Of a DNA stretch of 64,000 bases, positions 14,732-24,725 are shown piece after piece. The translations under genes and the position numbers were made by a program. Origin of the DNA: Cladocopium goreaui (lineage: Eukaryota > Sar > Dinophyceae > Suessiales > Symbiodiniaceae); contig CAMXCT020001647.1 in NCBI GenBank assembly GCA_947184155.2, positions 62,001 to 126,000 on the forward strand, written 5' to 3'. The first letter of the stretch is position 1; the number at the start of each line of letters is the position of its first letter. Under the pieces are notes generated by a model. It had not been told where the DNA came from. It saw only the letters and a list, made by a program, of their open reading frames with translations, and made no database searches.

Positions 14732-15878
14732 AAAAAAACATGAAAAAATTCCAGCCTTTTTGATTTACGGCATGTGTTCGTATCTGGGTTAATTTTAGTT
14801 TGCGTTTGCGAGAAACAATGCCATGTATCTCAGTTTTCTGCCGCTCACAACAATCCCTCCCAAAATATAACAGAATAGACGACACGGGAAAACAATACGG
14901 AAGTATCAAGTCTGGTTCAACGTTGGCCTTGAAGAAAACATGCTTTACAGATGTGAAAAAACACTGGTTTTTGCCCTGGCAAACTGCACACGGTAAAACC
15001 TAGGAAATAGGTAGCTGTGTAGTTAGACAGTACCGTTTAGGGTAGACATGGCATGACATGAGTTCATGACCGCAGCCCCCTTTGTGCACACCCGTGCAGT
15101 CAAGGAAAAAGGTGCCACTGAAGCGTGGTGTCTTGGAACTAGCGGGGTAAGTACGTAAGTAGACCCCAATACATGCTGACCGCTGCTACCTCGGTTTTTG
15201 CACGTTTTCATCTTCTCAGGCATTCCAGACAGGTATTCGTTGTCTGAAATTCTTGCAGAGCGGAGCACTTGATGCAAATGTGTCACATTGGACACCGCCA
15301 TCACCACGAAGGCGGAAACCAACAGGACAGTCCACCACAACCCCTCCGAACCGAGTGCATCCATCCCACTTATTGTGAGTTCATGAACGTTGGGATTGAG
15401 TCCCATGATCATAGCACTGCATGTATAGTTACCGGGGGAACCAATGAGAGAATCAACAGCACCAGTGCTGCTAAAGATGAAAGACTTGTGACAACTCCGT
15501 TCCAACACGTTTTTCCAATCTAAATATCAATGGAATTGGGGAGGAGTTTATTTTCGTTTTGCATTGTTTGCGTCAAACGCGAAAATATGTAGTAACGACT
15601 TTTCATTCCATCTAATCTTTGTCATTGTGACTTTTGCATCTTGAAATCAACTTTCGGTCATGGCTGGAGTCCGGCCGTCGGGGTTTGGTTTTCCATTGTG
15701 GAAATTTTGCATTCAGCTTGTTGTGCCACAAAAACCAGATGAAATTGAGTGAGCACGCGCCGCTTTTCGAATTTATTCATGTTGATTTGCACAATGTTTG
15801 TCAACATTCATCCTTGCAAGTGAAACGTGTTAAAATACAAAACTGCATCATCACGTGAAATGATCAAAACCAAATTGA
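14732..15878. other. Spacer upstream of the copia-like element
   Basis: About 1.15 kb with no recognised gene. The longest frames (15023-15508 minus, 161 codons; 15634-15858 plus) have no motif and no homologue in the window. It is the insertion target of the element that follows. Confidence 0.4.
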
Positions 15879-15910
15879 AAATTCAAACCGATTTGCAGTA
15901 CCGTTTGGAA
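15879..15910. repeat. Left target-site duplication (32 bp)
   Basis: 32 bases beginning AAATTCAAACCG and ending CCGTTTGGAA lie immediately left of the 5' LTR and are repeated exactly, right of the 3' LTR, at 24694-24725. Target duplications of Ty1/copia elements are normally about 5 bp. Confidence 0.85.
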
Positions 15911-16090
15911 GTCAAATTTACTCCATCGTACTCATGCATGCGGTAGGCTCCAGGTGGATTGAGGTGATACAGAGAAGATTAGCATGGCCATGGATGACAC
16001 GCACATGGAACTCAATGCACGTTGTGCCCAAACAGTGGCTCAAAGAAGCGTGGTGAAAACAGACGCTTAGTGCTCCGCCAGATTTTCTCA
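15911..16090 (+). mobile_element. 5' LTR of copia-like element, with U6 snRNA core
   Basis: A 180-bp direct repeat, starting GTCAAATTTACTCC and ending GATTTTCTCA, that recurs at 24514-24693 with one mismatch seen by eye (A/G at 16003/24606). It is followed directly by TGGCAGCGGG, a plausible tRNA primer-binding site, which supports the right boundary. From offset 55 it contains the U6-like segment. The start is GT rather than the usual TG; the end is CA. Confidence 0.88.
15966..16002 (+). ncRNA. U6 snRNA-derived segment inside the 5' LTR
   Basis: 24 consecutive bases (starting GATACAGAGAAG and ending CATGGCC) equal the conserved core of U6 snRNA. They include the ACAGAGA box that pairs with the 5' splice site and the AGC triad. 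After a gap of seven bases relative to human U6, 11 more bases (GGATGACACGC) match the 3' side of the internal stem-loop. The apical stem-loop is missing, so a working snRNA is doubtful. It is either captured U6 sequence or a U6-like RNA in the LTR. Confidence 0.8.
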
Positions 16091-17307
16091 TGGCAGCGGG
16101 AGCCTGGATGATGCTGGGATTCTACAAGGTTGCCTTGCTGCTGTTGGCGTTGGAGGCCGTGCAGCTGAGTGGAGATGGAAATTCGAAATCCTGGTGCAAC
16201 GAGAAGATGAATCACTGGGATGGGTACCTACGTTGGACCCCAAGCATTGCTGGGTTGGCAATGGACAACACTGGCATGGTGCTACAAGTGAGTGACCGGT
16301 ACAATAGTGGCAACAGAATCCTTAGCAGCTTTGATGAGCCCAATGTGATGATGATGCAGCAACTGAGGTTTGTGCCTAGAGGCTTCAGTGGTGGCTGCAG
16401 CAGGAACAACAACAGGGATCCTAGATCCAATGTGACAGTTTTGCAACGACTGATGTTCGAGACTAGGAGCTTCAGTGACAGTTGCAATGATGATTTCAAG
16501 TGCAATGAGCAACAAGGTTGGAGTACAGAAGCTAGCGGTGAAGATTTCCCACGAGATACTTTTTCACTGGTGAACCATTTTTCTAGCAATTCTGGCAAAC
16601 TCAACAACGTTGCGTGCATGGATGATTTTTGCAGTGAGATGGTTTTCATGTCACAAGAATTCCACGACTTTGATCAGAGCAATGCTGGCTATTTCGACAT
16701 CTGGAGTGGTAACTTTGAAGGGTTTGACCATTTTCAGTGCGATGCTGGCAAATTCAACCGATGCAACCATTTTCAGTACAATTCTGGCAAGTTCAACATT
16801 GGTGATTTCATTCATGACAGTTTTGGCAGTTTCAATGTGAATGACTTCATTCAGTGCAATTCTGGCAATCTCGACATGTATAACCTCACTGAGAGCAATT
16901 CTGGCCACATCAACTCCTTTGACCATTTTCAGTACGGTTCTGGCAGATTCCAATACAAGAGCCTTGGGACAGCGTGCAGAAGTTTGACATCAATTTTCAT
17001 GCATTGGCTTGTGGTTCAATGGCATGGACGTGCAGGTGTTTTCGATGCAGCGCAGTTTCATTTGGATAGCTGGACAGATGGTACAACAGTTGTTGGTGAC
17101 ATTGGTCAGTTGCAGTGCATTTCAGATTGCAGTCAGTTTGGTTGCAAGTGCGTGGATGGTGACAATGGGTTTTCCTTCTTCTATAACTGGTCTGACACTA
17201 TGAGGATTGAGGATGGCTATGACGGCGTGGCAATTCTTGGTTCAACAACAGTTGACAATGCTGGCAAACTTGCGTGGGTAATTTGGAGTTTCATGGACAC
17301 AACTTGA
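16090..17307 (+). CDS. Leader ORF with signal-peptide-like start and 13-residue repeats
   Basis: A 405-codon frame whose ATG overlaps the LTR end and primer-binding site. Residues ~9-25 (FYKVALLLLALEAVQL) are hydrophobic like a signal peptide. The middle consists of degenerate 13-residue (39-bp) repeats around HFQ-NSGKFN, at least six clear units between ~16690 and 16960 and weaker ones upstream. The frame is held through the repeats, which argues for coding. No known family is recognised; it is not Gag, Pol or a typical Env. The stop is 8 bp before the open frame that carries Gag. Its hydrophobic start and the membrane segments at the far end of Pol suggest that membrane-associated products are a theme of this element, which is inference. 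Confidence 0.5.
   Translation: MAAGAWMMLGFYKVALLLLALEAVQLSGDGNSKSWCNEKMNHWDGYLRWTPSIAGLAMDNTGMVLQVSDRYNSGNRILSSFDEPNVMMMQQLRFVPRGFSGGCSRNNNRDPRSNVTVLQRLMFETRSFSDSCNDDFKCNEQQGWSTEASGEDFPRDTFSLVNHFSSNSGKLNNVACMDDFCSEMVFMSQEFHDFDQSNAGYFDIWSGNFEGFDHFQCDAGKFNRCNHFQYNSGKFNIGDFIHDSFGSFNVNDFIQCNSGNLDMYNLTESNSGHINSFDHFQYGSGRFQYKSLGTACRSLTSIFMHWLVVQWHGRAGVFDAAQFHLDSWTDGTTVVGDIGQLQCISDCSQFGCKCVDGDNGFSFFYNWSDTMRIEDGYDGVAILGSTTVDNAGKLAWVIWSFMDTT
16091..16104 (+). promoter_or_regulatory. Putative primer-binding site
   Basis: TGGCAGCGGGAGCC begins at the base after the LTR, as expected for a site pairing with a tRNA 3' end (…CCA). The tRNA was not identified. The ATG of the first ORF overlaps it. Confidence 0.55.
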
Positions 17308-17374
17308 CGCAACTGTGAGGATTCTGGCAGGTTGTACAGTTTTCCAGGTGGTTGTGGCAGCTCTTACAATCACG

Positions 17375-20300
17375 ATGATGGCTTGTTTGGTTTGGCATGC
17401 ATGGCTGAGTGTGAGCCACTTGAGCAGCAGTGGCAATGTTCAGTGCAGACTGGAGAGGAGGAGACATCGACAGAGAGCAATCCAAATCCAACGACAATTG
17501 CTTGCGGCAGTCTTCTTGTGTGGGATGTCAAGTGCCCATGCAATGGAAGAACAGGCTCAACCTGGCCTACAGGAGGCGCTATTTCAGCGCATGAGCTCTA
17601 TGGCTGAAGCTGCAACCAGGGCAGCTGCAGCGGCAGAAGAGGCCTTGAAGAGGTCTGGCCCAGGTGGGGGTACCACCAATGATGGACTGCAAGCAGCACC
17701 AAGGATTTTGAAATCCCCTGACGCATTTAGCGGTGATGATGTCATGCAATTTCAGCAATGGAAACATCAGTTCACAAGTTGGCTTTGCTTTGGGGACAAC
17801 CGCTACAGTGACATCTTGACGCTCTTGGAGAAGAAGGAGGAATCACCTCAATGGTCTACATACAATGCAGATGAGCGCATGTTGTCACAGAAACTCTATG
17901 CAGTGCTCACATCATATCTGCGTGGAAGATGCGCCCACATGGTGAGGTCAGAAGCTACTTCAAAAGATGGCTTCAAGTTGTGGCATTCACTGAATCAGGA
18001 GTTCATGCCGAGTACACGTCAACGGAGCTTGGCCTTGGCTCAGGCGCTTGGATCTTTCCCGTGCTTCAGCAAAGATCGCTCTGCTCTGGAATCAATCCTG
18101 AACTATGAGCAGCTGGTCTTGGAGTATGAGCAGGCAAGTGGGAGCACCTACCCAAAGGAGCTCATGGCAGCAACTCTCATCAAATGTTGCCAACCACGTC
18201 TACGTGAACAGATTCAACTTTCTATCAGTGATGCAACTACCTATGCAGACATCAGGGAGAAGATCACTTCATATGAACGAGTTTCAAAAGCTTGGACAAG
18301 CGATCAGGTTTTGAAACATGTGAATGATGCACCCAACTATGGTGCCAACTCTGGTGATGGACCTACGCCCATGGAGGTCGACAGAGTAGAGAAGGGCAAA
18401 GGCAAGAGCAAACACAAAGGCAAAGGCCGTGGCTCTTCTTCTGGCAATGAGTGGGTGAATGCTTGGATGTATGGACGTGGAAGAGGTCGAGGACGCGCCA
18501 ACAAAGGCAAAGGAAAAGGGAAGTCAAAAGGTAAGAACAAAGGAAAGAAGGGCAATCAAAAGGGAGGAAGCTCAAAAGGAAAGAAAGGTGGTGGTCGTGG
18601 AAAGGTTGCTTATGGACAGTGTTCCAACTGCTATGAGTTTGGACATTGGAGCCGAGAATGTCCCAACATGGTGAATCAGGTTGGGAAACAGGAGCCTGTT
18701 GCGCCCAATCAGGCAACTTCTTCAACAGCTCCAGCAGCAAAAGCTTCCAACACTGCCACAGTCAGAAGGATTTTTCAATTTGGAAGTCCTGCTCCTTCCT
18801 CAAGCCCGTCTTCACCAACTTCTCCAGTTTCCTTCAATGGTTCCCAGGTGCGTATGGTACTTTTCCATGATCCTGCGTGTGAGTGGACAGAGGTGACCGA
18901 CAATGATGCTGACCAGGAGTGGGTTATGTTGGACAGTGGATCAGATGTTAGCCTACTTCCTGCAAGGTATCGAGCTGACAGCAACTCTGATGAGATGTTG
19001 GGATCCTTACAAAACTGCCAAGGTGGATCTCTTCAGACGACTGGAACAAAGAGAGCGGAGCTGATTGCAGTCACAACAGAAGGTGAAGAAGTTTTGTTGC
19101 AACATGATTTCATTGTTGGAAATGTTACCTCATGTCTGGTTTCATTGGGTCAGCTGTACCAGGGTGGATGGTCGATACAAAAGAACGAGGTGGACAACAG
19201 CCTGAGTTTGCGTTCTCCAGGAAATGAGATTCAGATACCAATTGAGTTTCGAAACCGCTCTTTTGCCATCAGGGCCCACGTGAGGCAGGTGTCTGACATG
19301 ACATCACGTACCAATGTGGCAGCAGGTGACAATGGTGAGCTTGCAGTGAGAACAGTGGTTTACGTTGAAGATGAGATTGAGAATGCATCAATGGACGTTT
19401 GGGAGATGACCACAGATGGAACGCCATTTTTCAGGACTTTGACCACCAACTTCATTGACCCTGGACAAACTTGGCCTTTCTGGCCATACAGAACGACTCT
19501 TATCAGAAAATTTCAAAAGGACAGACCTTGGACTGTGGTTGAACTTTCTCGCAAGTTCCAAGACATGCGCAATCCCTTTGGGATGATTGACCAATTTCTT
19601 TTGACGATTGGGTTTGAAGATGAATGTGAGTCTTTGACTTTGCTGGGTGTCGAGCCTCAGACACTACTGGATTTGGGGCTGGTTGTTGTGGATGAGTCAG
19701 GCGATGTGGTGTTTGGACAGGAGGAATTTGAAGTGACAGGCCTTCGTGAAGAACCTCCTGCAGCAGCAACTTCCGGCAATTCTCAAATTCCTGCAGTTCT
19801 CCCACCTGAGAATGGGGGACAATTGCCTGATGCATGTGAGGTTGAACCTGGTGAAGAAATTCAAGCTGTGCCAGAGATTGTGGAAGAATCAAATGTGGAT
19901 TCACTGACAGTTCATGATGGTTTGGTTGTGACAGCACGTTCAACTGTCAAGCTGTTACGTGATGCTTGCAGATGGTATGGAGTGTCTCAAGCTGGATCAA
20001 AAGGCCGCATGTTTGAACGATGCAAAGCAGCTCATGAGACAGCATTGAAAAGAAGTTTGATTGAGGCTGCTCAGGACCAATACAGGTCATTGCAACATGA
20101 TGCTGAAGGAGTTTCAGTACCTCCTCAACCCAGCGACAGAGACAGAAGCTTGCATGACTTGACACACACACCATATCAACCATGGTGCAAGTTTTGTGTG
20201 ATGAGCAGGGCAAAGGCAAACCATCACTCTCATATCCCTGATCCTGAAGGGGATGCACAGCGTGAACACCCAACAATTCAGTGCGATTTCTTTTTCATGG

Positions 20301-20977
20301 AGCCTGGCAAAGAAGGTGCAGTTGTAGCTCTTTTGGCTGTGGATGTTTGGTCGCGCTATGTGACAGTGGTTCCCCTCAAACGGCGCAATGCCCAGACTGT
20401 GGGACAAGCCTTGGTGAAGTTCATCAATCATGTTCGAGATGGCACAGTTGAGATAGCTTTTGACAATGAACCAGTACTTGTGGCTGGAGTGGCATTTTGC
20501 AAAGCAGCACGTGCAAAGACTGGATATACCACAATCACAACTCCCAACAAGATGTATGACAAAGGGAGGACAGGTGTTGCAGAAAGGTTTGTGCAGACAA
20601 TTCGTGAACTTCAAAAGACGCTGTTGTGCCACATCGAGGCTGAGATCAAAGCGACCATTCCCTCAGGACATGTGGTTGTACAATGGGCTGCAATGCATGC
20701 TTCATGGCTCTACAACAGGTACAATGTGCATTCGACGTACCATATCAAAGCCTGTGGGGACGACCATACAAAGGCAAGGTTGTTAGCTTTGGGCAGACAG
20801 TATTTGGTTTGGACCCAAAAGCTACCAAATACAAACCTGCTTGGAGGCGTGGTGCATGGTTGGGCAAGGACATTGCTGACCACGACCTTATCAGTACAGA
20901 TGGGCAATGCATCATCAGGACAAAAGCTGTCAGAAAGATTTCCAGTGAATGGGATGCAGAACTACTTCTGTGAATGA
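17375..20977 (+). CDS. Ty1/copia-like Gag-protease-integrase polyprotein (frameshift near its end)
   Basis: The frame is open from 17315 (GTG); the first ATG is 17375, and ATGs at 17525 and 17543 are also possible. Order: a hydrophobic N-terminus; a Gag helical domain (17700-18330); a KGKGKSK-rich tail; a CCHC knuckle (CSNCYEFGHWSREC, ~18620); an aspartic protease with LDSGSD (~18930); an integrase zinc region (H...CKFC, ~20150-20200); and a catalytic core with Asp in QCDFFF, Asp in FDNEP and Glu in GVAERF, the last two 39 residues apart. Near 20730 the conserved integrase tail (WGRPYKGKV, WLGKDIADHDL, IIRTKAVRKISSEWD) jumps to another frame and runs to TGA 20971-20973. One indel therefore breaks an otherwise complete polyprotein; the stop given here is that of the shifted frame. 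Confidence 0.88.
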   Translation: MMACLVWHAWLSVSHLSSSGNVQCRLERRRHRQRAIQIQRQLLAAVFLCGMSSAHAMEEQAQPGLQEALFQRMSSMAEAATRAAAAAEEALKRSGPGGGTTNDGLQAAPRILKSPDAFSGDDVMQFQQWKHQFTSWLCFGDNRYSDILTLLEKKEESPQWSTYNADERMLSQKLYAVLTSYLRGRCAHMVRSEATSKDGFKLWHSLNQEFMPSTRQRSLALAQALGSFPCFSKDRSALESILNYEQLVLEYEQASGSTYPKELMAATLIKCCQPRLREQIQLSISDATTYADIREKITSYERVSKAWTSDQVLKHVNDAPNYGANSGDGPTPMEVDRVEKGKGKSKHKGKGRGSSSGNEWVNAWMYGRGRGRGRANKGKGKGKSKGKNKGKKGNQKGGSSKGKKGGGRGKVAYGQCSNCYEFGHWSRECPNMVNQVGKQEPVAPNQATSSTAPAAKASNTATVRRIFQFGSPAPSSSPSSPTSPVSFNGSQVRMVLFHDPACEWTEVTDNDADQEWVMLDSGSDVSLLPARYRADSNSDEMLGSLQNCQGGSLQTTGTKRAELIAVTTEGEEVLLQHDFIVGNVTSCLVSLGQLYQGGWSIQKNEVDNSLSLRSPGNEIQIPIEFRNRSFAIRAHVRQVSDMTSRTNVAAGDNGELAVRTVVYVEDEIENASMDVWEMTTDGTPFFRTLTTNFIDPGQTWPFWPYRTTLIRKFQKDRPWTVVELSRKFQDMRNPFGMIDQFLLTIGFEDECESLTLLGVEPQTLLDLGLVVVDESGDVVFGQEEFEVTGLREEPPAAATSGNSQIPAVLPPENGGQLPDACEVEPGEEIQAVPEIVEESNVDSLTVHDGLVVTARSTVKLLRDACRWYGVSQAGSKGRMFERCKAAHETALKRSLIEAAQDQYRSLQHDAEGVSVPPQPSDRDRSLHDLTHTPYQPWCKFCVMSRAKANHHSHIPDPEGDAQREHPTIQCDFFFMEPGKEGAVVALLAVDVWSRYVTVVPLKRRNAQTVGQALVKFINHVRDGTVEIAFDNEPVLVAGVAFCKAARAKTGYTTITTPNKMYDKGRTGVAERFVQTIRELQKTLLCHIEAEIKATIPSGHVVVQWAAMHASWLYNRYNVHSTYHIKACGDDHTKARLLALGRQYLVWTQKLPNTNLLGGVVHGWARTLLTTTLSVQMGNASSGQKLSERFPVNGMQNYFCE

Positions 20978-23900
20978 CAGATGGTCCTATGGATTTCTTT
21001 GGTCTCAAGTCGAAGCAGAAAATCATTCCTCTACCGGCACCTCTTGCAGAGGAGATTGACGAGGAAGCAGAAGCGGTGCGAGACCAAGTACTTTCAGAAG
21101 GGTACTCAGCTTCTGAACCTTTGGATGCGGAAGATGCAGAGGGCAGACAAGAATTTGTGGAAGCTCAAGCTTGTGAAGATGCTGGACTTGAACATGGCTC
21201 TGATCAAGGTGGGGCCATTTCACCGGGAATGATGGCACCAGTGACGCCATTGGATGATGTGCCCAGTGATGAAGATGTGGAAATTCCGGCGGCTTCTCAC
21301 AAACATGCTTCGAGTAGTCCTCTTGCAAGTGAAGGTTTGAAAGCTCAGAAAATGGATGACGACCCTGTGCCAACACCAAAAGTCAAAGCGGCAAAGGTGG
21401 AAGGAAACATCAACTACATCGCAGAAGTTGAACTTTGCCACAACGATGAAGAGATGTTTGATGCTGACTTGGAAGATGAACTTTATCTTCACGATGAGGA
21501 AGATGATTACATTGCAGGACAGACAGAAGGAGCTGGGCCACCTCAGGTGAGTGCAGAAAAGCTTCAAGAGCTGGACAATCAGGCTGCACTGGATGAGTTG
21601 GACAAGCTTTACAGGATGGATGTGATCAAACCTGTATTTCTCAGTCCCGAGGAAGCTGGCAATTCAAACACGGTGGACACAACATTGGTGTTTGATTGGA
21701 GATACCGCAATGACAACTGGATAAGGCGATGCAGAGTGGTTGCAAGGGAGTTTAAAACAAGCAACACAGATGAGACAAGCTTTGCACCAACATCAGCCTT
21801 CTCAGCAGTGCGTATGTTGCTGATTTTTGCAATGGTCTATGGTCTTGCAGTCACAGCTTTGGACATTTCAGATGCGTTTCTCATGGTTCCACAGGTTGAG
21901 GTCATGTTTGTGGAGATTCCTCAGTGGGTGCGTGAGTTGACCCAAAGAGATGAGACCCACTGGAGATTGCTCAAATGCTTGCCTGGTCAACGCAATGCGG
22001 CTCTGCGATGGCACTTGCACTTTGCTCAGATTTGTGAGGGTGCTGGACTCAAAGCTTTTCCAGGTACACCTACAGTGATGAGGCATGGTGACCTTGACAG
22101 AAAGGTCTTCATCAATGTGCATGTGGATGATATCCTTCTGATTTGCAAACCGGAGGATGTGCCATGGTTCCAACAGACAGTTGGAGCAACTTTGAAGATG
22201 AAAGTTGATGGGCCCCATTTGCTGGCCAGTGGTGATCAAATGATGTACCTCAAGAAGCGCATTACCATGAAGGAGGATGGCATTCTCATCCAACCAAATG
22301 CCACCTACGTGCCAAAGTTGACCTCTCTTTTGAAAGTGACTGGACGCAGAAAGAAGGGATTACCCTATCATGCAACGCTGGAATCATTCAGCGCAGACCT
22401 TGCAGTCGATGCTGAAAACTTAGCTGGTGAACAAGCAGCTACATTCAGATCAGGCTTGGGATTGACCTTGTACGTTGCGATGGATCGGCCGGACATCCAA
22501 TTTGCAGTCAAGACATTGTCCTCCTATATGTCGAGACCAAGTGTCAAGGCGATGGCAGCACTGAAGCACTTGGCTTCATACCTGGATGGAACACTAGACA
22601 ATGGAGTGTTGCTACGCATGACAGAAGAGGGCAAAACAGTCAGCGATTTCTGGAATGAGGATATGCTGATCAGTGATGAGGTGACAATCCCAGATCTGCA
22701 CACCGAGAGCAAGTTCACACTGGAATCATTCAGTGATTCATCTTGGGCAGATTGCAAGGCAACTCGCCGAAGCACCTCTTCGGGAATCATCTTTTTGAAT
22801 GGATGTATTGTGATGAGTGTTTGCAGAACACAAGCTTCAGTGTCCCTTTCATCATGTGAGGCTGAGCTGTATGCAGCCAATGGGTTGATGGTTGAGAGCA
22901 TCTACCTTTACAGGCTTTGCAAGTTCTTGTGCGGTGATGGATGTGAAAACAACAGCGAAAAGGTCCAACAACGACTTTTCTTGGATTATTCTTCAGCTCT
23001 TGGCCTCATACGCCGAAGTGGGACAGGCAGATTGAAACACATTCAAATCAAGCAGTTCTTCTTGCAAAACCTCTTGCGATGTGGTATTTTCACAGTGCAC
23101 AAGGTGAACACCAAGATCAATCCTGGAGATCTGAACACCAAAAGGCTTGGAGGAGAGAGACGCAGTTTTCTGGGAAGATTGATTGGGTTGTTCGTGCCTG
23201 GTGACAAGGAGAAGAACGATGACAATGCAGTGCGTCAAATCAGGAGATTGAATCAGATGACACGAGAGCATGTGGTGAGACTGGTGCAGATGGCTGGCAT
23301 CACAATGAACATGTGTATGCAGCTGAAAGGATGTGGAAATGATGGTAGCACAGACGACAACGTTGATGACTTTCAGATGGTGTGGTGGACAGTAGTTGAA
23401 TCTACACTTGGATGGTTGCTGGCAATGCTTCACCTCATCTCCACGGTATGCATCTGGACTCTCTTTCTCATGGTGCAGTTGGCAGGTATCTGTACACTTT
23501 TGGCTTCAGTGATTTTGATGATTGGTGGACCATTGATTTGGAGAAACCTTCGAGCTCTACAAGGATTTACAACACGCAATGCTCCAGGTCTCATGGGTTT
23601 TCGCTACAGGTGGTTCATTCGACCGAGTCTGTGGGTTTCTTGGTGGATGCTGCGAAATGAAATCACCTACCTCCATGCTCGTTTTCGGGCTGCAGGTCAA
23701 CATGGTGACATGATGGTTGACATCGAGAATGTTTTCCAAGCTATTGATGAATACTTGACAGGTGGACAGACTTTGATCGGTGCAGCAGCAGATTTGGTGC
23801 ACAATGAGGAACCGCTGGAAGAAGCTCAAGACGAGCCAATGGCGGAACCTTTTGGACCAGATGATGACATTGCTGAGCTGGCATATCAACATGCCAGGCA

Positions 23901-24282
23901 ATTGAATGGCCACACAGTCGACAGAACAGTCACTGAAACAATGGCAGATGAACAGCGAGATCGAGAAGTTGAAGCAGATGGTGAAGATGAAGATGAAAAC
24001 ATGGACGAGACTCCTAGAGGACGTCGAAGACGATATTTGCAGAGCAGTATGTCTGAAGTCAGTGATCCGGATGAGTGGGCAGAAGTGCATTACGGCTCAC
24101 GTGACCAATGGGATCACGAACGTATGGTTGCCTTCTCAAATGCCAACCAGTTGCGGCTCAGGCGTGCCTATCAGATCCTTCAACAGAGAAGACAGGATGC
24201 AGAGGCAGCAGCGAACTGGGAAGAGGCATCACACTACAGCCGAGCAATGGCAGAAGTTCGATCACTGATGGATTTGGCATAA
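20974..24282 (+). CDS. Ty1/copia-like reverse transcriptase-RNase H with a long membrane-type C-terminal extension
   Basis: A 1102-codon frame. Its ATG follows directly the TGA of the integrase tail in the same phase, so the junction is one in-frame stop. Residues 1-235 are an acidic linker. RT follows: FDWRYRND, RRCRVVAREF, TALDISDAFL, LPGQRNAALRWH, and the catalytic HVDD (residues 383-386, His instead of the usual Tyr). RNase H has FSDSSWADCKATRRSTSSG (~586), SSCEAELYA (~627), a DYSSALGL segment and KHIQIKQFFLQ. After RNase H the protein continues for ~350 residues. There are two or three hydrophobic segments (~805-860, Trp/Leu-rich), an Arg-rich patch, an acidic stretch and a charged helical tail ending at TAA 24280. 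That extension is unusual for copia Pol. The frame is uninterrupted. Confidence 0.9.
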   Translation: MTDGPMDFFGLKSKQKIIPLPAPLAEEIDEEAEAVRDQVLSEGYSASEPLDAEDAEGRQEFVEAQACEDAGLEHGSDQGGAISPGMMAPVTPLDDVPSDEDVEIPAASHKHASSSPLASEGLKAQKMDDDPVPTPKVKAAKVEGNINYIAEVELCHNDEEMFDADLEDELYLHDEEDDYIAGQTEGAGPPQVSAEKLQELDNQAALDELDKLYRMDVIKPVFLSPEEAGNSNTVDTTLVFDWRYRNDNWIRRCRVVAREFKTSNTDETSFAPTSAFSAVRMLLIFAMVYGLAVTALDISDAFLMVPQVEVMFVEIPQWVRELTQRDETHWRLLKCLPGQRNAALRWHLHFAQICEGAGLKAFPGTPTVMRHGDLDRKVFINVHVDDILLICKPEDVPWFQQTVGATLKMKVDGPHLLASGDQMMYLKKRITMKEDGILIQPNATYVPKLTSLLKVTGRRKKGLPYHATLESFSADLAVDAENLAGEQAATFRSGLGLTLYVAMDRPDIQFAVKTLSSYMSRPSVKAMAALKHLASYLDGTLDNGVLLRMTEEGKTVSDFWNEDMLISDEVTIPDLHTESKFTLESFSDSSWADCKATRRSTSSGIIFLNGCIVMSVCRTQASVSLSSCEAELYAANGLMVESIYLYRLCKFLCGDGCENNSEKVQQRLFLDYSSALGLIRRSGTGRLKHIQIKQFFLQNLLRCGIFTVHKVNTKINPGDLNTKRLGGERRSFLGRLIGLFVPGDKEKNDDNAVRQIRRLNQMTREHVVRLVQMAGITMNMCMQLKGCGNDGSTDDNVDDFQMVWWTVVESTLGWLLAMLHLISTVCIWTLFLMVQLAGICTLLASVILMIGGPLIWRNLRALQGFTTRNAPGLMGFRYRWFIRPSLWVSWWMLRNEITYLHARFRAAGQHGDMMVDIENVFQAIDEYLTGGQTLIGAAADLVHNEEPLEEAQDEPMAEPFGPDDDIAELAYQHARQLNGHTVDRTVTETMADEQRDREVEADGEDEDENMDETPRGRRRRYLQSSMSEVSDPDEWAEVHYGSRDQWDHERMVAFSNANQLRLRRAYQILQQRRQDAEAAANWEEASHYSRAMAEVRSLMDLA

Positions 24283-24513
24283 GAATTTGAAACAGCTGGA
24301 TGATGCCTGTGGTGAGGAATCAATGCACGAGGCCTCAGGTATGTGGAAACACACCAGCTGACTTTGCGTTCCAAAGTGAGAGACGGCTAGCTAATTTACC
24401 TCATGACCACTTTTTCTGGAACCCAAATTAATGAAAGCACAGATGGCCTTGTAACTGGCCAAAACTGGTGAGATGGCTTCACATCTTGAAAAGATGCAAA
24501 GCCAAGGTGGGGT
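24283..24513 (+). other. 3' untranslated part and polypurine tract of the copia-like element
   Basis: Non-coding DNA between the Pol stop and the 3' LTR. AAGGTGGGG at 24504-24512, just before the LTR, is a plausible polypurine tract priming plus-strand DNA. Confidence 0.55.
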
Positions 24514-24693
24514 GTCAAATTTACTCCATCGTACTCATGCATGCGGTAGGCTCCAGGTGGATTGAGGTGATACAGAGAAGATTAGCATGGCCATGGATGA
24601 CACGCGCATGGAACTCAATGCACGTTGTGCCCAAACAGTGGCTCAAAGAAGCGTGGTGAAAACAGACGCTTAGTGCTCCGCCAGATTTTCTCA
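24514..24693 (+). mobile_element. 3' LTR of copia-like element
   Basis: 180 bp matching the 5' LTR almost perfectly. The near identity implies a recent insertion, although the polyprotein already has a frameshift. It includes the second U6-like segment (24569-24605). Confidence 0.88.
24569..24605 (+). ncRNA. U6 snRNA-derived segment inside the 3' LTR
   Basis: Same sequence and same offset (55 bp into the LTR) as at 15966-16002, with the same missing apical loop. Confidence 0.8.
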
Positions 24694-24725
24694 AAATTCA
24701 AACCGATTTGCAGTACCGTTTGGAA
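24694..24725. repeat. Right target-site duplication (32 bp)
   Basis: Exact copy of 15879-15910, immediately after the 3' LTR. Confidence 0.85.

Follow-up and report, generated by a model that had tools for sequence, protein, structure and literature searches.

Why should the long terminal repeats (LTRs) of a retrotransposon carry a piece of a spliceosomal RNA? This question is raised by a Copia-type retrotransposon in the genome of the dinoflagellate Cladocopium goreaui, located in a window of 64,000 nucleotides (the whole stretch analysed; contig CAMXCT020001647.1, positions 62,001 to 126,000), in which both LTRs contain part of the U6 snRNA. The origin of the piece, its occurrence in related elements and its possible role are considered here.

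Architecture of the element

The two LTRs of the window copy differ by 1 mismatch over 180 bp in a direct comparison. The LTR boundaries had been proposed, in a sequence-only reading of the window, to be supported by a TGG primer-binding site and a polypurine tract, and both are present (Table 1). In relatives, the polypurine tract also lies immediately 5' of the 3' LTR, with small variations, and the LTR starts one base earlier than in the window copy, with TGTCA or similar. The last LTR base and the primer-binding site together form an ATG. Open frame 1 gave no match in Pfam. Open frame 2 contains a zinc knuckle (about 18617-18667, 18.6 bits, below the cut-off of 20.8), a protease-like motif read by eye and an integrase core (rve; about 20270-20515, 29 bits, just below the cut-off of 32.6). 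The Copia-type reverse transcriptase RVT_2 (about 21673-22203, 51.7 bits, cut-off 31.6) is found in open frame 3, together with an RNase H-like motif that was also read by eye. Integrase thus precedes a Copia-type reverse transcriptase, as in Ty1/copia elements, with rve just under and RVT_2 above its cut-off, and the near-identical direct LTRs, the primer-binding site and the polypurine tract of the window copy agree with this class.

Table 1. Features of the element and its flanks in window coordinates
Feature	Position	Strand	Remark
33-bp flanking direct repeat, left copy	15878-15910	+	identical to 24693-24725
5' LTR	15911-16090	+	180 bp
U6 core GATACAGAGAAGATTAGCATGGCC, 5' LTR	15966-15989	+	24/24 against host U6
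U6 internal stem-loop 3' side GGATGACACGC, 5' LTR	15992-16002	+	11/11 against host U6
Third conserved box AGTGGCTCAA, 5' LTR	16034-16043	+	LTR alignment
Open frame 1, 405 aa	16090-17307	+	profile search
Primer-binding site TGGCAGCGGGAGC, TGG type	16091-16103	+	common to relatives
Open frame 2, 1220 aa	17315-20977	+	zinc knuckle, protease-like motif, integrase core
Open frame 3, 1102 aa	20974-24282	+	RVT_2, RNase H-like motif
Polypurine tract CCAAGGTGGGG	24502-24512	+	comparison with relatives
3' LTR	24514-24693	+	180 bp
U6 core, 3' LTR	24569-24592	+	24/24
U6 internal stem-loop 3' side GGATGACACGC, 3' LTR	24595-24605	+	11/11, exact
AGTGGCTCAA box, 3' LTR	24637-24646	+	sequence
33-bp flanking direct repeat, right copy	24693-24725	+	first base shared with LTR end

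A target duplication had been claimed as well. A flanking repeat does exist, but at 33 bp it is unlike the usual target duplication of an LTR element. The 5-bp duplication typical of Ty1/copia elements is absent from the window copy, whereas inspection by eye showed it in each of the 13 others for which both LTRs could be aligned, and C3560 also has one. The window copy is therefore filed as a Ty1/copia member with an odd insertion. Neither this abnormal duplication nor the U2-U6 chimeras described below had been foreseen in the first reading.

The U6 piece in the LTRs

The U6 piece stands in sense orientation relative to the element and lies within a short LTR at about 50-70 bp. Both of its parts, the 24-base ACAGAGA/AGC core and 11 bases from the 3' side of the internal stem-loop, are exact in the two LTRs, as had been read from the letters; between them, AT stands where the host U6 has CCTGCGCAA. 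A search of the window for the 24-mer with up to 3 mismatches gave 2 matches, both exact, and 0 in 100 shuffles. The Rfam U6 model (RF00026), suggested earlier as a check, did match the LTR with 30.2 bits (E 1.4e-5 for 601 bases), but the gathering score of 44 was not reached, and a scan of the whole window at the gathering threshold reported no match. A host U6 gene scores 108.5 bits with the same model. The 5' stem-loop, the complete internal stem-loop and the 3' U-run of U6 are not kept in the aligned LTRs and, judged by its sequence, the LTR piece is no working U6 gene.

A third conserved LTR box, AGTGGCTCAA, resembles the 3' end of the spliced leader or a tRNA box A. Derivation from the spliced leader was rejected: for 10 of 12 LTRs, over 5% of the shuffled versions reached the best local alignment, the exceptions being C1378 (14/300 shuffles) and C2668 (7/300); the likeness may serve as a lead only. 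Box A was likewise rejected: 5 of the 12 LTRs match the loose pattern, some of them away from the box, and no box B was found.

Occurrence across the genome

The exact U6 24-mer is found at 56 sites in the genome (reversed control 0), some of them genuine U6 genes or pseudogenes of U6 and others LTRs. A comparison with the host U6 genes identified them as the source of the LTR piece. A sample of 26 elements from a Pol protein search of this genome (window copy included) contains 23 with the U6 core in an LTR, the window copy among them, 2 in which a U2 piece is joined to the U6 3' piece, and 1 whose LTR is interrupted. When 21 elements were compared, 14 gave two alignable LTRs, and every one of these 14 has the U6 piece; eight LTR lineages of elements reached through Pol contain it. 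The LTR signature is CAAGGTGGGGTGT, followed by ACAGAGAAGATTAGC or TATCTGTTCTTATCAG. The earlier proposal of a captured snRNA in both LTRs, constrained in many copies, is borne out by the 23 elements; the segment is neither confined to this LTR pair nor a nested pseudogene in one copy, the two outcomes that had been named beforehand as speaking against it.

In two related elements (C1517 and C1311), the ACAGAGA half is swapped for a U2 piece and the U6 stem-loop 3' piece is retained. The LTR of C1517 matches the host U2 at 29/29 and U6 at 21/22 positions, that of C1311 at 24/24 and 30/33. The Rfam U2 model matched C1517 only (28.1 bits, E 0.0029), without reaching the gathering score of 46. 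C1311 lacks the GUAGUA branch-site bases of U2 and therefore does not keep branch-site pairing. A U2-core word occurs at 77 genomic sites (control 0), and outside the arrays 11 same-strand pairs lie 8.0-8.9 kb apart, an LTR-like spacing. Exact spliced-leader sites number 172 (control 0), which marks the host as a dinoflagellate, and an SL-U2 fused sequence is also present. A U5 word used as a specificity control gave 0 sites and is therefore uninformative.

Exact-word searches miss real cases, as C1311 shows; by this means, the distant Copia loci C535, C1471, C736, C983, C371, C1112:2028701 and C3334 had no exact U2 word nearby in the full U2 list and no exact U6 16-mer nearby among the matches listed. 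No U6 piece was found in viral contigs, and a search of genome contigs beyond the host gave a single U6 gene, which lies on a contig of a bacterial MAG. A literature search returned no description of LTRs carrying such U6/U2 sequence.

Conservation of the piece

Between the eight LTR lineages, identity is 87% in the core and 93% in the U6 3' piece compared to 49% in the rest of the LTR, and four-fold sites of Pol are 34-44% identical between five lineages. The first LTR statistics included rows partly reached via the LTR or a U6 word and were repeated on rows from the Pol hit list. In a set of 23 rows, all on that list (C3131, C3560, C1269 and C3248 had originally been reached by DNA), 0.67 changes per column were counted in the core, 0.53 in the U6 3' piece and 2.74 in the rest. 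Left out of this set were C4729, C1306, C2974, C6050, C4546, C2163 (truncated), C3235, C942 and C4168; C4057 was also left out, and C2235 was excluded from the LTR alignment because it is not an LTR. The values changed little when C818 (core deletion), C3404, C483 and C6089 were added: for 27 LTR rows of Pol-list elements they are 0.75, 0.53 and 3.06, with p 6e-8 for the core and 3e-7 for the U6 3' piece when each is compared with the remaining LTR columns. Both chimeras, C1311 and C1517, lie outside the 23-row set and entered a later set only, in which the core stands out less (1.50 changes per column vs 3.66; 3/24 columns unchanged).

In C818, two bases within the ACAGAGA box are deleted. 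Each of the 11 LTR representatives compared departs from host U6 in the loop between the core and the 3' piece, and a changed state, GAAACAG, is common to several LTR lineages. Folding of 14 LTR segments gave z values of -1.3 to +1.3 against mononucleotide shuffles, thus no favoured hairpin, and a conserved TGTC/GACA hairpin as a substitute for the U6 internal stem-loop was rejected on the same range. In 10 elements, a search for a strand of the element itself that could pair with the core yielded helices no longer than those obtained with shuffled cores. Within this one genome, purifying selection on the captured U6 sequence is the best reading of the alignments. Since the piece is nearly unchanged while the rest of the LTR drifted, it is probably useful to the retrotransposon.

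Possible roles of the piece

The explanation that we favour, and to which we assign an even chance, is that a dinoflagellate Copia group captured part of the host U6 into its LTR and kept it as a sense-strand RNA element that mimics snRNA. The capture may have come about by the reverse transcriptase of the element switching template onto co-packaged U6 RNA; retroviral particles contain U6, for MLV and RSV at roughly one copy in each particle according to PMC4997597. The piece would act in RNA and not as a promoter, because two different snRNAs occupy the same LTR slot. The element RNA might mimic the naked U6 (or U2-U6) active-site strand and attract a factor of splicing or of snRNPs to its termini, possibly in order to direct or escape spliced-leader trans-splicing, or to retain the genomic RNA in the nucleus. 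A stronger version, in which the LTRs are built from pieces of spliceosome active-site RNA (U6, in related elements U2 and U6) and the mimic hijacks or blocks splicing, possibly trans-splicing, is put forward only tentatively. The missing hairpin and internal partner strand, the lack of GUAGUA in C1311, the deletion in C818, the weaker contrast of the core once the two chimeras are included and the restriction to a single genome speak against the favoured explanation, and the conserved sequence would fit a protein-binding DNA site equally well.

A less probable but live rival is that the piece is a DNA promoter or enhancer element of the LTR, derived by chance from the transcribed part of U6. 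Conservation of sequence and not of structure, together with the position of the piece within a short LTR, would suit such an element, but what is conserved is the catalytic strand of U6 and not its upstream region, U2 fills the same slot in two elements, and U6 and U2 are normally transcribed by different polymerases. An equally live rival, of similar probability, is a packaging or reverse-transcription signal, whereby Gag or the element RNP would prefer U6/U2-like RNA and the element would have joined such sequence to its termini. The U6 content of MLV and RSV particles is in line with this, and the SL-U2 fusion indicates that snRNA-containing chimeras arise; a conserved fold, however, was not found.

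Little credence is given to camouflage, in which small-RNA silencing of an LTR bearing an essential host RNA sequence would hit the host snRNAs. It would suit any essential RNA and hence the exchange of U6 for U2, yet it predicts many host RNAs, and inspection by eye of the 100 listed of the 172 spliced-leader sites revealed no two on one strand that lie 8-9 kb apart. Very improbable is an old capture without function, kept similar by repeated recombination with the host snRNA genes. The host U6 and U2 genes do form multicopy arrays, but conversion tracts should restore the loop, which differs in every LTR compared, only the core and the 3' piece being U6-like; the shared GAAACAG state fits descent. 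We see the smallest chance for a role of the piece in integration, in which it would provide homology to, or target the element to, sites that resemble snRNA. C3560 is inserted in U6-derived sequence (duplication CAAAT), C6089 adjoins such sequence and both C943 and C6138 have looser U6 3' pieces, with 5 mismatches, no more than 1.5 kb away, whereas the junctions of 14 two-LTR elements, inspected by eye, are without U6 sequence.

Comparison with known systems

Although silent Pol sites are almost saturated between these elements, the core of a host snRNA ranks with the best-preserved parts of their LTRs, and a different snRNA occupies the same slot in related elements. Should the RNA work as an snRNA mimic, as in the favoured explanation, the family would offer a natural test of how a transcript recruits or evades the spliceosome in a group with trans-splicing; at the minimum, the piece is a marker by which an old snRNA capture can be traced.

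snRNA-headed SINEs are non-LTR, non-autonomous elements with U1 or U2 snRNA as 5' head and promoter. They have in common with the present family that a mobile element bears snRNA sequence; unlike these non-coding SINEs, the window element has two LTRs and Pol frames, and its catalytic-core fragment lies inside the LTRs. U6 pseudogenes linked to LINE-1 are reverse-transcribed U6, which would be the shared mechanism. An excerpt of PMC4476161 connects them with LINE-1 activity; they are separate U6 copies, whereas here U6 sequence is a conserved part of another element. Utopia and Dada, which insert into snRNA genes according to portions of PMC4640811 and PMC3706591, also tie mobile elements to snRNA genes; in those accounts the snRNA gene is an outside target, while here the piece is inside both LTRs and the target duplications are outside. 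Among the closest counterparts are the dinoflagellate Ty1/copia elements, which include a heat-activated Ty1-copia of Symbiodinium microadriaticum according to part of a review (PMC11453091). The present family shares with them integrase before reverse transcriptase, LTRs, a polypurine tract and, in relatives of the window copy, 5-bp duplications; it differs in carrying U6 or U2 in its LTR, a feature that the consulted part of PMC11453091 does not mention.

U6 sequence in the LTRs and in host genes

The sequence-only reading had claimed that both LTRs of the Copia-type element contain the same piece of U6 snRNA. This was borne out, as the 24-mer GATACAGAGAAGATTAGCATGGCC (the core) occurs exactly in each LTR and is followed, after a deletion, by GGATGACACGC. 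When the LTR was compared by Infernal with the whole Rfam U6 model, as that reading had proposed, the alignment scored 30.2 bits (E 1.4e-5 for 601 bases), short of the gathering score of 44. Host U6 genes have the expected sequence (108.5 bits for one of them) and reside in arrays on contigs C4692, C5084 and C4795 and in dispersed copies. U6 and U2 genes share one common tandem unit of mostly 2.7-3.4 kb (stretches L072 and L073; C4692, C5084). Mapping of 11 LTR representatives, some of them found by DNA, on host U6 placed the matches in GGAAC-GATACAGAGAAGATTAGCATGGCC and GGATGACAC-GCAC-AAAT; neither the apical loop nor the 5' stem-loop nor the U-run of U6 is kept in these representatives. Retained are thus the ACAGAGA box, the AGC triad and the U6 strand that forms U4 stem I and pairs with U2, whereas the portion engaged in U4 stem II is scrambled in the LTRs. 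Folding of the LTR segments gave no signal.

Other U6-derived sequences were encountered in the genome. One kind derives from the U6 3' part and is similar in stretches L012 (near 1480) and L095 (near 316); it is the insertion site, with a 5-bp duplication, of the LTR element on contig C3560, and the one on C6089 adjoins it. A distinct repeat (L003/L004 on C324, L078 on C3231, L086 on C4401) has a pair of U6 cores at a distance of 53 bp and is, in the part read, not an LTR of the window-element type. A eukaryotic U6 gene sequence in JAIYDP010000129.1 (L092), which is recorded as part of a Verrucomicrobiaceae MAG, is likely contamination.

Structure of the element

Features of the Copia-type element in the window, 64 kb of contig C1647
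Feature	Position	Remark
Copia-type element	15911-24693	180-bp LTRs, 1 base different between them
5' LTR	15911-16090	lacks its first T
3' LTR	24514-24693	
TGG primer site		directly 3' of 5' LTR
Polypurine tract		5' of 3' LTR
Flanking duplication	15878-15910 and 24693-24725	33 bp
ATG	16090	last LTR base plus first two primer-binding-site bases; start of first open frame
GCACAG-containing motif	24437-24447	~75-110 nt upstream of 3' LTR

Among the boundary marks invoked earlier, the primer site and the polypurine tract stand, whereas the target duplication deviates from that of the relatives: by eye, 13 of 14 two-LTR elements show 5 bp, the window copy being the sole exception. With its 33-bp duplication and the missing first T of its 5' LTR, this copy may have arrived by some way other than regular integration, e.g., end joining at a staggered break. 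Pfam detected an integrase core (slightly below cut-off) and, downstream, a Copia-type reverse transcriptase. The copy is probably non-autonomous, since its internal region is split into three open frames and several relatives (e.g., C668, C1112, C3680 and C2269) have a single one of 2,698-2,778 aa. The ATG across the LTR end and primer-binding site recurs in all 14 two-LTR elements, and the GCACAG-containing motif in 9 of 10 elements compared by eye.

U6-containing LTRs in related elements

A Pol protein search of the 1.17-Gb genome returned 46 matching stretches, with only the best candidates scored. LTRs were inspected for 26 elements from this list including the window copy, namely 20 automatic loci and six picked before their LTRs were seen. 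That many LTR copies keep the core, named in the sequence-only reading as support for a role, was confirmed: it is present with 0-4 substitutions in 19 of the 20 automatic loci, and in the remaining one (C818) it is there but has lost two bases of the ACAGAGA box. Three picked elements (C2269, C483, C6089) contain the core, a U2-U6 chimera is found in C1311 and C1517, and the C4057 LTR is interrupted. Comparison of 5' and 3' stretches for 21 elements yielded two LTRs of 179-209 bp in 14, all with a sense-direction U6 piece, and no LTR pair within the stretches compared in the other seven.

DNA searches, each run with a control, gave 15 genome sites for a polypurine tract plus core at LTR spacing (control 0) and 211 for a U6 16-mer with at most one mismatch (control 15). 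Among 100 listed of these 211, 14 non-array pairs lie 8.3-9.1 kb apart by eye, at least nine of which are elements already in the Pol-list count.

U2-U6 chimeric LTRs

In two elements a U2 piece stands in place of the U6 core and is joined to the U6 3' part. The C1517 LTR matches host U2 at 29/29 bases in the vicinity of the branch site and the U6 3' part at 21/22; that of C1311 matches 24/24 of U2 and 30/33 of U6. The Rfam U2 model gave 28.1 bits (E 0.0029, below the gathering score) on the former and no hit at E up to 1 on the latter. Their Pol proteins are 50% (C1517) and 49% (C1311) identical to the window Pol; the two are termed related to the window element, not sister to it.

Exact copies of the U2 core word number 77 in the genome (control 0); 16 fall in the host arrays on C4692, C5084 and C4795, in which U2 genes were called with RF00004. 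Eleven same-strand pairs lie 8.0-8.9 kb apart by eye on non-array contigs, array contigs being left out because three array units also span ~8.4 kb. One pair (C3779) encloses a Pol match. In two other pairs, part of one side was read: C93 matches U2 at 35/39 bases, and C499 has 23 consecutive U2 bases and, by eye, another U2-like stretch. Otherwise the pairs are taken for LTRs from their spacing. For the spliced leader word, 172 exact matches (reversed control 0) mark the host as a dinoflagellate; among the 100 listed, no pair at LTR-like spacing was seen by eye.

Conservation against drift

Changes per column in LTR alignments (p values treat columns as independent)
Set	Core	U6 3' piece	AGTGGCTCAA box	Rest
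23 rows	0.67 (14/24 unchanged; p 4e-8)	0.53 (12/17 unchanged; p 5e-7)	0.50 (8/10 unchanged; p 5e-5)	2.74 (121 columns, 12 unchanged)
27 rows (+ C818, C3404, C483, C6089)	0.75 (p 6e-8)	0.53 (p 3e-7)	0.80 (p 2.5e-4)	3.06
29 rows (27 + two chimeras)	1.50 (3/24 unchanged; p 6e-6)	0.65 (p 8e-8)	0.90 (p 9e-5)	3.66
31 rows, partly LTR-found	0.88	1.19	0.80	3.57

The 23-row set comprises Pol-list elements of eight LTR lineages, whose representatives are 87% identical in the core, 93% in the U6 3' piece (3' side of the internal stem-loop), 95% in the AGTGGCTCAA box and 49% in the rest. Between five lineages, represented by eight elements, four-fold sites of Pol agree at 34-44% (~1.0-1.6 changes per site); the core is 24/24 identical among the window copy, C943 and C2668. 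Judged from these alignments, the U6 piece is conserved beyond drift.

Origin and possible function

Stretch L099 (C2458:208260-208400) holds an intact spliced leader joined directly to U2 from about nucleotide 12-13; snRNA chimeras therefore do form in this genome, which makes template switching onto packaged U6 a likely origin of the capture. The changed state GAAACAG, common to several LTR lineages, points to descent and not to repeated capture.

Descriptions of snRNA within LTRs were not found in the literature covered on U6/U2/snRNA-derived elements, LTR/Copia retrotransposons, SINEs and dinoflagellates, which included few subscription papers, nor in passages of PMC3229502, PMC7789003, PMC11453091, PMC11071213, PMC12014239 and PMC5890265.

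The sequence evidence says that the U6 piece is useful, and used as sequence. A promoter module copied from one gene would be argued against by the U2 that stands in place of the U6 core, which, in the two elements concerned, would favor a spliceosome-tied RNA role. The preferred reading, at about an even chance, is that the piece acts as an RNA cis-element mimicking an snRNA; a use in packaging and a use as a DNA element together take most of the remaining probability.
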